64,000 nucleotides of DNA from Candidatus Heimdallarchaeota archaeon. GTDB taxonomy: Archaea; Asgardarchaeota; Heimdallarchaeia; Hodarchaeales; Hodarchaeaceae. Positions 5,505 to 33,441 of this stretch are shown here, piece by piece. How positions within the stretch are numbered: position 1 is the stretch's first letter; each line of letters starts with the position of its first letter. The DNA lies in the NCBI GenBank assembly GCA_011364965.1, contig RDOB01000004.1, positions 262,036 through 326,035 on the forward strand, written 5' to 3'. The position numbers were made by a program, and so were the translations under genes. Under the pieces are notes generated by a model. The model made no database searches and was not told where the DNA came from. It was given only the letters and a program-made list of their open reading frames with translations.

Positions 5505-5611
5505 CGGGCGCAGAGGGAATTTCACCACAAGAGAGAGAGTCTGCCTGTAGATTTGAACCCCCGGCCAACAGGTTAAAAGCCTGTCGCTCTACCTGGCTGA
5601 GCTATGCGCCC
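5505..5611 (-). tRNA. tRNA-Lys(UUU) with a T-loop intron
   Basis: GGGCGCA pairs with TGCGCCC, discriminator G; the anticodon loop CTTTTAA gives UUU. A 33-nt insertion (5519-5551) sits between positions 59 and 60 of the T-loop. T-loop bases TTCA pair with TGAA near the 3' end of the insertion, leaving bulges AAT and ATT; cutting each after its second base gives a normal seven-base T-loop TTCAAAT and a 74-nt tRNA. The intron has its own seven-pair stem next to the bulges. No CCA is encoded. Confidence 0.88.
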
Positions 5612-5624
5612 AAAAGGAGTATGG

Positions 5625-5727
5625 CGCCCCGATCGGGATTTGAACCCGAGTCGGATGGGTTCTGCGGACTGCCAGAGCGAGAGCCCTTGACAGCCATCAA
5701 TGCTAAGCCAAACTACACCATCGGGGC
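5625..5727 (-). tRNA. tRNA-Asp(GUC) with a canonical intron
   Basis: GCCCCGA pairs with TCGGGGC, discriminator G as expected for aspartate. The anticodon is GTC within the loop CTGTCA. A 28-nt intron at 5660-5687 lies at 37/38: CTGT of the loop pairs with GCAG in the intron and 3-nt bulges flank the pairing. The mature length is 75 nt. The three bases after the discriminator happen to read CCA (5622-5624). It lies 13 bp upstream of tRNA-Lys on the same strand, so the two may be co-transcribed. Confidence 0.92.
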
Positions 5728-26977: not shown

Positions 26978-29725
26978 TTATTTTCCTGCCTTTATTTTTC
27001 TTTCAAATTCTTTTATCTCTTGAACTATCTTCTCCAGCTTTTGCAGTGCTTCAATGGGGGTTTTATAATTTACATCAATATCAGAATAATTTTTTAAAAA
27101 AGCTAAAATTTCTAATTTCAAATCAGTAATCTCTTTTTCATACTTTTGTTGATTAATATTCTTAGAAAAAGCTTCAGCTAAAGAGAGCTGGCGATAACGC
27201 TGTTTAGATTTACTAACATCATTTTTATCTAGAGGGTTTGACTCCAAGGTATTTTCTAATTCAAATAGCTTTTTCTGAGCCGAAAAGATGACTGATTGTG
27301 GAATACCAGCCATTTTTGCCACACTTATCCCAAACGAGTGATCAGTAGATCCAGGTTTAATTTTGTATAAAAGTATTAATTCTCCATTTCTTTCTCTAGC
27401 TGTTTGATGATAATTTTCTACGCAAGAGAATTCTTTTTCTAACTCACTTAGTTGATGGTAGTGAGTTGCGAATAGAGTTTTGCATTGTACCTCTTTTGCA
27501 ATGTGTTCTGCAATTGCCCAAGCTAGTGACAACCCATCGTATGTACTAGTTCCACGTCCAACCTCATCCAAAATTATTAACGATTTTGAAGTAGCATTAT
27601 TGAGAATATAGGCCGTTTCTAGCATTTCTAACATAAATGTAGATTGACCGAATGCTAGCCTATCAAATGCTCCAACTCTAGTGAAGATCCTATCTATAAT
27701 TCCAAGTTGACATTCATCAGCGGGAACAAAACAACCCGATTGTGCTAATAGTACGATGAGAGCTACTTGCCTTATATAGGTTGATTTCCCAGACATATTA
27801 GGACCAGTTATAATGTGAAGTGATCCATCTTCTAGCTGGGTAGAATTGGGAATAAATCCTGTTTCTTTTTGGATCAGTTCCACAACTGCATGCCTTCCTC
27901 CTTTTATTTGGATAACGGGATGTTCTAGGAATTTAGGTCTGCAATACTTATTCTTCAAGGTAGTATTGGAAAAACAGAGTAGTACATCTAATTCAGCTAA
28001 AATTTGGGCAAATTCTCGAATGATAGGAAGTTTTGTAGTAATGCGTTCCCGAATCTGACAGAATAGATTAAATTCCAATTCCTGAATCCGTTCATCAATA
28101 TTCAAGATTTTTTCTTCTATCTCTTTTAATTTTGGCGTAATAAACCGTTCAGCATTAACCAAGGTTTGTCTTCTTATATAATCAGCAGGAATTGCTTCTT
28201 CTCCAGCATCCCTCAATTGAGCCTTTGTAACCTCAATATAATATCCATGAACGGAATTATAACCCATTTTGAGGTTAAATGATGTTCGATTTTGTTCATA
28301 ATCTTCAATTTTTTTCAGTATAGCGTTTTGGTTTGATTTTATCTCTTGAAGCTCTTTTAACTCTTGTGAAAAATTTGGGTTTATTATCCCACCCTCTTTA
28401 ATTGAAATTGGAGGTGATTCAACTATACTTGTCTCAATGTAAGATGCAATTTTTGATAAAATAGTATAATTAATTTTAATCAAATTATGAAATACTTGGC
28501 TATTAAAGTTGTATTCTTGAATAATATCACGTGTATTCAACCCAAAGTTAATAGAGGCTGCTAGCATTAGTAAATCTCTTGCATTAACAGTATTATAAAC
28601 TATTTTCGCAATAATCCGCTCAAAATCGGCTATTTGAGATAATAATACACAAGAATTATCTAATGCGGTATAATTTTCGACGAGTTCTTCTATAGCGTCC
28701 AACCGATTGTTAATATCATTTGGATCTTTAAGTGGTTGTAATAACCACTTCCGAAGGAGTCGTGCTCCCATACTGGTATTAATATCAGTAAAAATAGAAA
28801 GTAAACTTCCCTCAATTTTTCCATCAAATGCATTTTCGGTAATTTCTAGGTTTCGTTGAGTATTAGAGTCTAAAATTAAGAATTTACTATTATCCAAGGT
28901 TCGTAATGTAGTTATATTTGTTGGGTACTCATCTTTAAGTAAAGAAAGATAATTCAATATTGCTCCTGCAGCTCTTGTCCCCTCTATCATAGATTCGCAT
29001 CCAAAAGCGGCCAATGACGCAACTTGAAAGTGGCTCATTAATAATTCTCTTCCCGATTCATAATTAAACATGGTTTCATTCACTGGGGTTATAGTTACAT
29101 TGGATTGTGATCGAACTATCTTTTCAATGGCATTTCGTATTTTTTCTCTTTTTATTGAATCTGTAAACAAAACTTCTTGGGGCTTAAACCGCATAAATTC
29201 ATTTTGAAACTGCTCAACAATATTTTCTTGAAACTCAGTGGTAGAAAATTCCCCTGTGGAGATGTCTACTAACGCGAAACCTATTTTCTGTTTAGATTCA
29301 TTAATTGCTATACTAAGTAGATAATTGTTAGTTTTTTTATTAAGAATTGACGATTCGAAAACTGTGCCTGGAGTAACTACTCTTGTTACTCCTCTTTTCA
29401 CGATTTTGCCTGTCGCTTTTTTGGCATCTTCAAGCTGGTCTACTATGGCAACTTTGTACCCATTCTTAACCATGGTGCCTAAGTATGTATCAATAGCTTT
29501 TATTGGAATTCCAGCGAGCGGAATTCTCTCTCCATCAGAACCAATCCCACGAGATGTAAGTGCAATATCTAATACTTTAGAAGTAATCTTTGCATCATTA
29601 TAGAAAGTCTCATAAAAGTCTCCAAGCTGAAAAAACACAATAGTATTAGGATACTTTTCTTTAATCCTATCATATTGTCTCATTGCCTCTGTTTTTTTCT
29701 GGTGGAACTTTTGATTCTTTTTCAA
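26978..29725 (-). CDS. mutS: DNA mismatch repair protein MutS
   Basis: It recognises mismatches and slides as an ATP clamp. The 915 residues include the mismatch-reading motif FFQLGDFYETF near residue 30 (bacterial MutS1-type Phe-x-Glu form), the core/lever region, and the ATPase with GPNMSGKSTYIRQ, LDEVGRGTSTYDG, and THYHQL. It forms an operon with mutL immediately downstream. MutS1/MutL pairs are patchy in archaea and are usually thought to have been acquired from bacteria. Confidence 0.95.
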   Translation of the reverse strand: MKKNQKFHQKKTEAMRQYDRIKEKYPNTIVFFQLGDFYETFYNDAKITSKVLDIALTSRGIGSDGERIPLAGIPIKAIDTYLGTMVKNGYKVAIVDQLEDAKKATGKIVKRGVTRVVTPGTVFESSILNKKTNNYLLSIAINESKQKIGFALVDISTGEFSTTEFQENIVEQFQNEFMRFKPQEVLFTDSIKREKIRNAIEKIVRSQSNVTITPVNETMFNYESGRELLMSHFQVASLAAFGCESMIEGTRAAGAILNYLSLLKDEYPTNITTLRTLDNSKFLILDSNTQRNLEITENAFDGKIEGSLLSIFTDINTSMGARLLRKWLLQPLKDPNDINNRLDAIEELVENYTALDNSCVLLSQIADFERIIAKIVYNTVNARDLLMLAASINFGLNTRDIIQEYNFNSQVFHNLIKINYTILSKIASYIETSIVESPPISIKEGGIINPNFSQELKELQEIKSNQNAILKKIEDYEQNRTSFNLKMGYNSVHGYYIEVTKAQLRDAGEEAIPADYIRRQTLVNAERFITPKLKEIEEKILNIDERIQELEFNLFCQIRERITTKLPIIREFAQILAELDVLLCFSNTTLKNKYCRPKFLEHPVIQIKGGRHAVVELIQKETGFIPNSTQLEDGSLHIITGPNMSGKSTYIRQVALIVLLAQSGCFVPADECQLGIIDRIFTRVGAFDRLAFGQSTFMLEMLETAYILNNATSKSLIILDEVGRGTSTYDGLSLAWAIAEHIAKEVQCKTLFATHYHQLSELEKEFSCVENYHQTARERNGELILLYKIKPGSTDHSFGISVAKMAGIPQSVIFSAQKKLFELENTLESNPLDKNDVSKSKQRYRQLSLAEAFSKNINQQKYEKEITDLKLEILAFLKNYSDIDVNYKTPIEALQKLEKIVQEIKEFERKIKAGK

Positions 29726-29958
29726 CTTGAAACTTCCATTTCTAGAATATCAATAAAGTTGGAAAGTGGAAATAACTTTACAAAATCCGATTTAATGCTT
29801 TAGATACATGAATATTTTTTATTTCATGATTTTTTCTGTTATTCGATTTTGAGTATAATTTATCCGAAAAAAAAATAAGAAAATCTGAGAATATAAAAAT
29901 TACGGGTTACTAGGTTAAGTACATAATAAAAGCCCAGAATAACATGAAAACATGATTT

Positions 29959-30043
29959 GCGGGGATTTCCCAGTCAGGTCAAAGGAGCCAGATTCAGATT
30001 CTGGTCGCGTAGGCGTTCGTGAGTTCAAATCTCACTCCCCGCA
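29959..30043 (+). tRNA. tRNA-Leu(CAG), no intron
   Basis: GCGGGGA pairs with TCCCCGC, discriminator A. The stem CCAGA/TCTGG holds anticodon CAG, and the long variable arm is leucine-type. At 85 nt it is uninterrupted. Fifteen bases after its 3' end lies a 5'-end copy of tRNA-Ser, implying it was once followed directly by that gene. Confidence 0.93.
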
Positions 30044-30057
30044 TTTCTTTCATTTAA

Positions 30058-30073
30058 TGCCGAGGTAGCTAAG
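30058..30073 (+). repeat. Partial copy of the tRNA-Ser 5' end (putative attachment-site duplicate)
   Basis: The 16 bases at 30058-30073 match the 5' end of the tRNA-Ser gene and its preceding base (32197-32212) at 15 positions, with the single change T for C. The first 12 bases are identical. The copy lies between tRNA-Leu(CAG) and the stop codon of the 608-residue gene, and the full tRNA-Ser lies at the far end of that 2.1-kb segment. This direct repeat is what integration into the 5' end of a tRNA gene would leave. Confidence 0.6.
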
Positions 30074-30080
30074 CTTTCTT

Positions 30081-31907
30081 TTATTTCAACAAATCATATT
30101 TAGAATGATATGCTTTATTTAGAACAATCAAGATATATTCACGCTCTGGTATTTTATTTACTGAAGCGAAATTATTGATTAATTCGGAACATGGTTTTAG
30201 CCTCTTTCGACCCGAAAGCATTTCTTTTCCAGAATTCAAGCTTTGATAAATATATTCACATAAGTTCTGTTTGCTTTTTATTCTTTTATTGTATATTCCA
30301 ATACGAGTAGCGTTAAAAATTTCCCCAAAGGATTGGAAATAAATACTAATATTCCCCCAATAATGAAAAATTACTGTATGGTGCTTAGAGGGTACGTTTC
30401 TTAACGGAGGGTACCTAATTCCAAGTGGTAAATATTCAACTCTAAAGGAAGTAAGACCTGTATTAGTACAAGGATCAAAACATCCTATGCTTTTCAAAAA
30501 GTCACTGAGCAATTCCTCGTATCTATATTTTATGTATTTTGTTTTCTTGAAAGGTATTACTTTAAATTGAATTTTTTCCCTTGCTAATTTAGATTTTTCT
30601 TCGTATATTACAATATCTGGAAAATCAATAGTGTTTCGATTATTTGTTACGACTCTCCCCCATTTATCATCTGCGATAACTTTTAATGGCATGTTTAATA
30701 GATTTAAATGGTTCTTTTTTTTAGTTAAATCATTCATTTCGGATCTAATTCGTTGATCTTGGAAAATTACCGCAATAGCTCTCGTAATACCCTCTTTATT
30801 ACTTTCAAGTGGAAATAAAATATTATTTGTCGTAATATTACCGATTTTTTTGTTTATTGAAATTTCTCTTATATCTTCAAAAGAAAAAAGAGTTGGAAGA
30901 GGAATTAGTTCAGAATGCTGAATTTTCTGAAATTCTCTATAGAATTTGATGAAATTTGATCCTGTAAATTTTATGTTCCTGTAAGAGGTTAATAATTTTC
31001 TAATTAGATCAACTTTTGTTGATTGATCATTTAGAAAGATCTGAAAATGAGAATTCAACAGGCTAGAATCATTATAATCAGATTCTATGAATTTCAAATT
31101 TTTACTACAATAATATTCATATAATTTTCTAAGGCGTGGATTTTTTCCTTTATTCCATTGGGTTTTCCATTCATATTTTTTGGTGTTATAGAATCTCCAA
31201 AAAAGATACTCAAATAAGTCATCAATTCTTTTCTCTTCAAACTTTAACTTATAAACCATTAAGATTTGGATATTTACTGGATGAGTAATATTAAGAGATT
31301 TCTTTATCCCTTGAACTAAACTTAACTTGATTGCTTTATCTTGATGATGTAATGAAACCTTATTCATTAATGTATCAAAGATTATCCTTCTATTCCCTCC
31401 AGGTTTAAAACTTGAGGGTGAAAGGCCCTTTTTGTTGAAAGAATAAGTTTTACAGTTATAGATATGAAATTTAGCTACTTTATAAGATCTAGGATCGAGC
31501 ATGTCAAATGTAATAAACAAATTCTCTCCTCTCAGTTTTCCTCTATAATTTAGCCAACTTTCAATGGTTTCTGTTGGAAATTTCTTGCTATTTTCGAAAA
31601 AAAATATTAAATCTTTAAAATCGCCAAAATATTTAAGATTAATCAATCTAGTTTGAGTATTATACCCTATTAAAAATGGATTATTAAATTTTCTATTCAA
31701 TTTATCAAGATAATCGAACATTATGCTTGAAGGTCCACCAGTAACATCAATAATCTGATTCCATAGGTTTGTGAAGGAGTATAATCTTTTAAATTTCATT
31801 GAAGTTTCATTAGAGTCAGTCAATAATTTATCTACTAACCGTGCTAAATCCATCAAACTTTTTCTAGGAATGATACCCACCTTTAAGATTAAAAATAATT
31901 TAATCAA
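30081..31907 (-). CDS. Unrecognised 608-residue protein in the putative element
   Basis: I do not recognise a family. The protein is rich in Lys, Asn, Ile and Phe, in line with AT-rich composition, and has no signal peptide. Residues about 425-460 contain FPDIVIYEEK followed by IQFKV, an arrangement that could be a PD-(D/E)xK nuclease core of the Mrr kind with Gln in the second motif; this is a weak suggestion. A Cys pair occurs in CFDPC. An internal ATG gives MDLARLVDK as an alternative start 18 codons in. The gene ends 7 bp from the tRNA-Ser 5' copy. Confidence 0.6.
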   Translation of the reverse strand: MIKLFLILKVGIIPRKSLMDLARLVDKLLTDSNETSMKFKRLYSFTNLWNQIIDVTGGPSSIMFDYLDKLNRKFNNPFLIGYNTQTRLINLKYFGDFKDLIFFFENSKKFPTETIESWLNYRGKLRGENLFITFDMLDPRSYKVAKFHIYNCKTYSFNKKGLSPSSFKPGGNRRIIFDTLMNKVSLHHQDKAIKLSLVQGIKKSLNITHPVNIQILMVYKLKFEEKRIDDLFEYLFWRFYNTKKYEWKTQWNKGKNPRLRKLYEYYCSKNLKFIESDYNDSSLLNSHFQIFLNDQSTKVDLIRKLLTSYRNIKFTGSNFIKFYREFQKIQHSELIPLPTLFSFEDIREISINKKIGNITTNNILFPLESNKEGITRAIAVIFQDQRIRSEMNDLTKKKNHLNLLNMPLKVIADDKWGRVVTNNRNTIDFPDIVIYEEKSKLAREKIQFKVIPFKKTKYIKYRYEELLSDFLKSIGCFDPCTNTGLTSFRVEYLPLGIRYPPLRNVPSKHHTVIFHYWGNISIYFQSFGEIFNATRIGIYNKRIKSKQNLCEYIYQSLNSGKEMLSGRKRLKPCSELINNFASVNKIPEREYILIVLNKAYHSKYDLLK

Positions 31908-32197
31908 ATTAATCCTATTTAGTTCTTATTAAAAAGTTAAAGAAGGCACTATATTCTATTTATTCTTTATTCCAAATCAGAAAGTAAGAACCTACTCCCT
32001 AAGTTTCGATAAGTGTATATTCCTTATTATAAAGATGCTAAAATTTGGAGAATTAAATCCAAATAACTTAGAAAATTTGAAATAATTTCCAAGAATTAAG
32101 GTATTAAGGACGTTATCAAATTTCCTGTTAAAATCTAAGTTTATACAACAAAAAAGGAAAATAAAATTTAGATCTAACAAAAAATTTGGTTCACTTT

Positions 32198-32331
32198 GCC
32201 GAGGTAGCCAAGTGGTACGGCGCCAGACTCGAGATTCTGAAATTTAATCGGGATATCTGGTGTGCTATGCACCCGTGGGTTCAAAAATCAGTGAATTTGT
32301 TCTTCTCTGATTGAAATTCCCACCCTCGGCG
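32198..32331 (+). tRNA. tRNA-Ser(CGA) with anticodon-loop and T-loop introns
   Basis: GCCGAGG pairs with CCTCGGC, discriminator G as in archaeal serine tRNAs. The anticodon CGA is within CTCGAG. A 21-nt intron (32234-32254) is at 37/38, with CTCG pairing CGGG in the intron. A 32-nt intron (32286-32317) is at 59/60, with T-loop TTCA pairing TGAA. The mature length is 81 nt with a class II variable arm. A run of six T residues directly follows (32332-32337) and may end transcription. Confidence 0.9.
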
Positions 32332-32571: not shown

Positions 32572-33441
32572 GTGGATATTGAAAAAGTTGTTTCTGAAAT
32601 TCAAGCAAAATTTGGTGTTGTTGGGCGAGAAAATATCCTTCGAAAATTAATTCTTGGAAAAATGGCCAAAAAACATATTATTATCGAAGGACCAGTCGGA
32701 GTTGGAAAAACAACGCTTGCTCATGCTGTTGCTGCTTACTTTGATCAAGGTTTCATCAGGATTGATGGAGACGAACGATATACCGAGAGTAAATTAGTAG
32801 GTCATTTTGAACCTCCTCTTGTCGTGGAAAAAGGGTGGGTATGGGATGCGTTTGTTCCAGGACCTCTTACTCTTGCGATGAAGAATGGATCCATTCTTTT
32901 TATTAATGAAGCAAACCGATTGATAGAAGGAACTCAAAACGTGCTTCTACCATCAATGGATGAGGGAATATTAATTCTGCCGAAATTAGGAATAATAAGA
33001 GCAGGAGAAGGATTTTTAGTTGTTGCAACACAAAACCCTGAGTCATATATTGGCACAACTGTTCTTTCTGAAGCATTGAAAGATAGATTTGTCTGGATTA
33101 AATTGAATCACCAAAGATATGAAGAAGAATTAGACATTGTCATGCAGAAGGCAGATTTAGAACCAGAAGACCGAAATATCGCGGAAATAGCGGTTAAAAT
33201 CACACGAGCGACCCGAAAACATCCAGAAATCCGAAGAGGATCATCCATTAGAGGTGCCATTGATTTAGCTAAAATCTTAAGCTTAGTCAAAAGTTTAATA
33301 CTCGAAACGGTCTCAGAAATGGCAATTATGACTATTGCCACCAAGATTGAGCTAGAAGATGGCGTTGAAAGGCCTGTTGAAGAAATCATTCACGAGATCA
33401 CGGAAGCAATTTTGTCTGGAGACGAAGACCGTTTTTTATAG
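32572..33441 (+). CDS. MoxR-family AAA+ ATPase
   Basis: A 289-residue AAA+ ATPase with Walker A GPVGVGKTT near residue 40, Walker B ILFINEANR (Asp replaced by Asn before Glu, common in MoxR), sensor 1 VVATQNPES, and the helical lid. MoxR proteins act as chaperones that load metals or activate partner proteins through a VWA protein; the partner is encoded 56 bp downstream. The start is GTG with AGGTGA upstream, and a TATA-like tatttatat lies near 32540. Confidence 0.88.
   Translation: MDIEKVVSEIQAKFGVVGRENILRKLILGKMAKKHIIIEGPVGVGKTTLAHAVAAYFDQGFIRIDGDERYTESKLVGHFEPPLVVEKGWVWDAFVPGPLTLAMKNGSILFINEANRLIEGTQNVLLPSMDEGILILPKLGIIRAGEGFLVVATQNPESYIGTTVLSEALKDRFVWIKLNHQRYEEELDIVMQKADLEPEDRNIAEIAVKITRATRKHPEIRRGSSIRGAIDLAKILSLVKSLILETVSEMAIMTIATKIELEDGVERPVEEIIHEITEAILSGDEDRFL

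Follow-up and report, generated by a model that had tools for sequence, protein, structure and literature searches.

The window, i.e. the whole stretch of 64,000 nucleotides that was analyzed, is part of contig C12 of G000, a Hodarchaeales (Asgard) genome. At the locus of interest a mutS gene is followed by tRNA-Leu(CAG), a 16-bp copy of the 5' end of tRNA-Ser, an ORF of 608 amino acids on the minus strand, the complete tRNA-Ser(CGA) and a gene for a MoxR-like AAA ATPase (Table 1). The two copies of the tRNA-Ser 5' end, which lie 2139 bp apart, are identical over their first 12 positions, and the left one covers nucleotides 1-15 of the tRNA, counted from 30059. The near-copy, which an earlier note on this DNA had pointed out, is real: 300 shuffles of 4 kb yielded no match with at most one mismatch, and a chance origin was thus rejected. 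Its distance to tRNA-Leu(CAG) was given there as 15 bp and measures 13 bp. The tRNA-Ser(CGA) was missed by ARAGORN owing to two inferred introns, one in the anticodon loop (32234-32254) and one in the T-loop (32286-32317); when spliced, it forms a full cloverleaf (-35.5 kcal/mol). Considering the complete tRNA-Ser downstream and the fact that relatives lacking the insertion need no fragment, the left copy is not favoured as a functional split tRNA half. Judging from position only, the tRNA-Ser promoter would have to come from the non-coding end of the element. The reported AT-richness holds relative to the flanks (GC 0.27-0.29 versus 0.33-0.39), but some other nearby stretches are equally low. 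Elsewhere, the window contains an apparent intron-rich tRNA-Leu(TAA) at 574-735, also missed by ARAGORN, and two more tRNA-like matches in Rfam at 5542-5727 on the minus strand.

Table 1. Features at the tRNA-Ser(CGA) locus (positions within the window)
Feature	Position	Strand	Basis
mutS	26978-29725	minus	
tRNA-Leu(CAG), to the left of the insertion	29958-30044	+	ARAGORN, Rfam
Left repeat TGCCGAGGTAGCTAAG, putatively what remains of the old tRNA-Ser 5' end	30058-30073	+	15/16 match to 32197-32212
Inserted element, ~2.1 kb, missing from empty relatives	30074-32197		Gap comparison and alignment, nine genomes
608-aa ORF, the only substantial gene in the element, putative endonuclease of the PD-(D/E)XK type	30081-31907	minus	ORF call, homologues in G001 and G011
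Candidate nuclease motif P430-D431 ... Q447-x-K449	30561-30620	minus	Invariant in five family members
Non-coding element end, between ORF start and tRNA-Ser	31908-32197		Lies between ORF and tRNA, which are read divergently
Right repeat TGCCGAGGTAGCCAAG, 5' end of the reconstituted tRNA-Ser, apparently brought by the element	32197-32212	+	
Reconstituted tRNA-Ser(CGA)	32198-32330	+	Spliced form folds as cloverleaf
MoxR-like AAA ATPase gene	32572-33441	plus	

The locus is filled in three genomes (G000, G001 and G011) and empty in six others of the same genus (G002, G004, G006, G008, G009 and G010). In all six, tRNA-Leu and tRNA-Ser are adjacent, which bears out the proposal that the two genes once stood in tandem. 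The gap between mutS and the ATPase gene amounts to 2847 bp in G000 and 2497 bp in G001, versus 677-887 bp in the empty genomes other than G009. The latter has a gap of 2256 bp, yet its two tRNA genes are adjacent and the extra DNA follows tRNA-Ser, for which reason it was counted as empty; this DNA between tRNA-Ser and the ATPase gene (L048, contig C1) is unrelated and well over 1 kb long. The G011 copy of the gene, located between tRNA-Leu and tRNA-Ser, is broken by a TnpB-type insertion (PF07282, PF01385) and by stops. A search for the 15-mer GCCGAGGTAGCYAAG gave exactly two matches each in G000 and G001 and a single match per genome in the six empty ones. Both copies in G011 are on one contig, and a third match there represents the same left copy in a 127-bp contig overlap. 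The locus of G003 is split between contigs, and neither G005 nor G007 contained a match to the 15-mer. In the three filled genomes the direct repeat at this same target is 15-22 bp long. Retention of the gene without the repeat, which would have refuted the earlier reading, was not seen: both G001 and G011 keep the gene at the site together with the repeat.

When the flanks of the G001 insertion are joined, they align with the empty G008 through both tRNAs, save for the D-loop and a few substitutions. MutS of these two genomes is 96% identical, and hence the difference between presence and absence is recent. In G011, the end of contig C228 and the start of contig C122 overlap by exactly 127 bp, up to the last base of the tRNA repeat, which suggests an unresolved assembly fork and possibly filled and empty alleles in one population.

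To the left of the G001 insertion, 18 of the 20 spacer bases that follow tRNA-Leu agree with the empty G008, and so do nucleotides 1-18 of the left copy, AAGCGG included. Within the clade of G001, G002, G008, G010 and G011, the three empty members all have the D-loop AAGCGGTACGG, versus AAGCCCGGATTACGG in the right copy of G001 and the long AAGCTCGGATTAAGG in that of G011, i.e. in the reconstituted tRNA-Ser genes. Similarity to the tRNA extends through the D-arm in the left copy of G011. As for G000, its left copy has the AAGCT that is also found in the empty outgroups G004, G006 and G009, and its right copy has AAGTGGTACGG. The simplest reading of these sequences is that the left copy represents the old 5' end of the host gene and that the right copy was brought in by the element and reaches around nucleotide 25, although there are only three insertions to go by and G000 lacks a close sister. 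The duplication would then extend beyond the 16 bp that were noted originally; the repeat as such was confirmed, but the left copy of G011 indicates that the duplicated part probably runs to around nucleotide 25, the end of the D-arm. A carried gene end that differs from the original end of the host, as seen in the D-loops of left and right copies, is a property of homing endonuclease elements that replace a gene end. Furthermore, G001 and G008 differ at 12 positions in the first ~85 bp to the right of the insertion, versus 0-2 per 50 bp beyond. Co-conversion would give such a rise in divergence, but considering that introns evolve fast this is weak evidence.

The 608-aa ORF is open throughout, with an uncertain TTG start. 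The homologues at the same site are 46% (G001, 526 aa) and 38-43% (G011) identical to it. Between these two genomes the element is 66% identical, versus 79% for the host MutS. The dN/dS ratio of around 0.15-0.2 between the G001 and G011 proteins implies that the gene is under purifying selection and maintained as a protein. Five family members, the other four being 24-48% identical to the 608-aa protein, have an invariant P-D and Q-x-K around 16 residues apart, a spacing compatible with PD-(D/E)XK nucleases. Two AlphaFold runs gave poor models (pLDDT 55 and 51); the motif was modelled as strand, strand, helix, strand, strand, with a pLDDT mostly below 50 in that region, and Foldseek searches with these low-confidence models returned nothing useful. 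No curated family covers the protein: Pfam, PHROGs, PADLOC, NCBIfam and PDB yielded no integrase, transposase, nuclease, homing endonuclease or PDB match, in line with the earlier remark that a recognised integrase is lacking. Within the libraries searched its identity as a known integrase, transposase or defence gene can thus be set aside. On the basis of the motif the protein is likely a PD-(D/E)XK-type nuclease, but this has not been shown and the cutting activity is inferred.

The family appears confined to the genus. G000 contains a single copy, at the tRNA-Ser site, and a search of 228 genomes of the phylum found no homologue beyond the genus; weak matches in G081 and G204 sit in unrelated proteins and were rejected. 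The GTDB contig collection holds only three loci, all in Hodarchaeota/Heimdallarchaeota MAGs (those named are B3_Heim and YT1_021). A viral origin was dismissed, as IMG/VR contigs include no relative. A paralogue near a tRNA-His in G001 (C50) was not counted as a second insertion of precisely this kind, given the DDE transposase gene in between and the absence of a detectable repeat, and the large paralogues on contigs C63 and C91 of G001 and C33, C128 and C158 of G010 have no tRNA nearby. Two of these large paralogues (1180 aa in G001 C63, L060 5149-8691; 1072 aa in G010 C128, L061) lie beside an alaS-like gene; the former belongs to an insert of 4.7 kb that separates the alaS-like gene from ileS, is missing in G008 and G002 and has no visible repeat at its junctions. 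Other genus-restricted large modular proteins have acidic N-terminal parts and in some cases nuclease-like C-termini (L089 3333-6851, L090 1282-5745, L091 1075-3780 and L138 389-4720), and those tested match no curated family.

Nuclease-like genes were also found at two other duplicated tRNAs. In G008 (C10; L115 3116-6070), a tRNA-His whose first nucleotides are missing where it meets the insert is followed by a nuclease-like ORF of 864 aa, with the motif region APDILII...AFIHLK (APDILIIDRKLKRTVAFIHLKGK), and by a complete second tRNA-His. The latter has the opposite orientation, an intron at another position and a compensated acceptor pair. The arrangement in G010 is empty, and in G002 the new type of tRNA-His stands alone, without the ORF, a state that loss of the nuclease-like gene would produce. 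Two matches to the tRNA-His pattern were obtained in G008, versus one per genome in the seven others where it was found. In G007 (C266; L139 1-1440), the order is a tRNA-Ser(UGA) in decay, an intact copy and, abutting the latter, what is left of a broken nuclease-like gene, its 3' part (GIIQIKV); two copies of this tRNA occur only in G007, versus one in ten other genomes. Sister elements appear to have replaced tRNAs in like manner but in their entirety, namely tRNA-His in G008 and tRNA-Ser(UGA) in G007. The associated proteins form a second nuclease-like family. A profile comparison with the 608-aa family gave no significant link, and the two cases may therefore be convergent and not related.

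Presence or absence among close relatives at one conserved target is one of the properties of a homing endonuclease element that replaces a gene end, and the locus conforms to this. We favour, with the scales evenly poised and the mechanism unproven, a one-gene mobile element in the D-arm region of tRNA-Ser(CGA) that spreads by homing with replacement of the 5' end, and prefer this to integrase-mediated integration. The 608-aa protein would be an endonuclease of the PD-(D/E)XK type that recognizes a specific sequence and cleaves the empty tRNA gene close to the D-arm, and the break would be repaired from an element-bearing copy. The element would supply its own 5' segment with a changed D-loop, leaving a tRNA that is functional and no longer cut, and the old host 5' end would remain upstream and decay. 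Such a replacement explains why the D-loop is altered, why divergence is raised just beyond the right end of the insertion, why the old copy decays and why there are versions with whole tRNAs. The invariant motif, the tRNA-His and tRNA-Ser(UGA) cases and the contig fork in G011 also speak for it. Against it stand the lack of a match to a curated nuclease or homing endonuclease, the low confidence of the structure models, the missing profile link between the two families and the large paralogues without a tRNA nearby. The site polymorphism among relatives, the clean joining of the flanks, the 5' duplication in every filled genome, the D-loop difference and the purifying selection are direct observations. 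The core of the earlier reading, an element that inserted and left a duplicate, is supported by them, but integration in the integrase sense is not shown, and homing driven by an endonuclease suits the data no less well.

Site-specific integration nevertheless remains a possibility, if a doubtful one. A circular element with the 5' end of a tRNA as attP would have recombined with the tRNA-Ser 5' end (attB), the repeats being attL and attR, and the catalyst would be either an integrase supplied in trans or the 608-aa protein itself, as a recombinase of a new type. The clean direct repeats at both ends at a tRNA and the empty sites in relatives are as required for elements of the SSV/pNOB8 type, joining of the flanks restores the empty arrangement, and the possible, merely suggestive filled/empty fork in G011 and the similarly laid-out Caldiarchaeum tRNA-Thr case, which was so interpreted (PMC3293823), point the same way. 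However, the tyrosine or serine recombinase that such elements encode is missing, and no recombinase signature was detected in any library searched. Moreover, a crossover within the shared 16 bp would keep the host D-loop in the right copy, and the observed D-loop differs from that of the empty sisters. Nor does direct-repeat integration give a complete tRNA-His that is inverted relative to the truncated one, as in G008. Transposition of a transposase-like protein's element into a hot spot, with a target-site duplication of ~16-18 bp at the tRNA 5' end, could explain the identical target with a 15-22 bp direct repeat in three genomes, but is improbable considering the different D-loop of the right copy and the fact that none of the hallmarks of a classical transposon is present: there is no transposase domain, there are no convincing terminal inverted repeats, and instead of copies at several sites the homologue search recovered a single one in G000, at the tRNA-Ser site. 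Least probable of all is an ancestral element, inherited vertically and now resident and immobile beside tRNA-Ser, since this needs precise losses in G008, G010 and G002, each restoring one intact tRNA, and the spacer and left repeat of G001 match the empty G008, even though the element identity between G001 and G011 does not exceed that of MutS and a recent lateral transfer between them is thus not shown.

The closest precedents are an insertion in tRNA-Thr(GGU) of Caldiarchaeum subterraneum (PMC3293823) and mobile endonuclease ORFs of fungal mitochondria (PMC3630166). In the former, described by Sugahara et al. (2012), a 5' tRNA fragment likewise lies ~1.8 kb upstream of the reconstituted tRNA, the insert reaches nucleotides 24-27, there is one ORF putatively acting on DNA, an element-free allele exists in the population and the reconstituted tRNA is altered, in that case by an extra intron at 24/25. 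The authors proposed integration of the pNOB8 (plasmid) type and suggested that the tRNA changes could block further invasion. The ORF there measures 813 bp and is on the tRNA strand, whereas ours encodes 608 aa on the opposite strand, and the Caldiarchaeum element partly recurs elsewhere in its genome, whereas ours occupies a single site (PMC3293823). The fungal ORFs (Allomyces atp6; Glomus atp6, atp9, cox2 and nad3) also insert in essential genes, bring in a foreign, divergent gene end and leave the native end as a remnant, and are the analogue in terms of mechanism. They differ in encoding LAGLIDADG or GIY-YIG enzymes instead of a PD-(D/E)XK-like candidate, and in affecting the 3' ends of mitochondrial protein genes instead of a tRNA 5' end (PMC3630166). 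New with respect to these precedents are the empty sites in sister genomes, the protein family and the two further tRNA targets. The archaeal integrative elements of the SSV and pNOB8 types share the tRNA target, the direct repeats and the reconstituted tRNA, but encode a tyrosine recombinase, which was not detected here, and usually more genes.

Mobile elements have long been considered as drivers of the introns, fragmentation and replacement of archaeal tRNAs. The present case offers a well-resolved minimal element in the 5' end of an Asgard tRNA, with no known integrase and with empty sites in sister genomes, and if the nuclease reading is right it provides a directly testable mechanism for these processes. 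As a tentative extension, which we consider possible but far from secured, the Hodarchaeales may harbour a guild of cleave-and-rescue elements of natural origin. Each would consist of one nuclease gene whose product cuts an essential tRNA gene (Ser-CGA, His or Ser-UGA), together with an altered replacement that escapes cutting through a changed D-loop or a moved intron. If true, such a guild would drive the turnover of tRNA genes and exert selection in favour of the unusual introns that archaeal tRNA genes contain.
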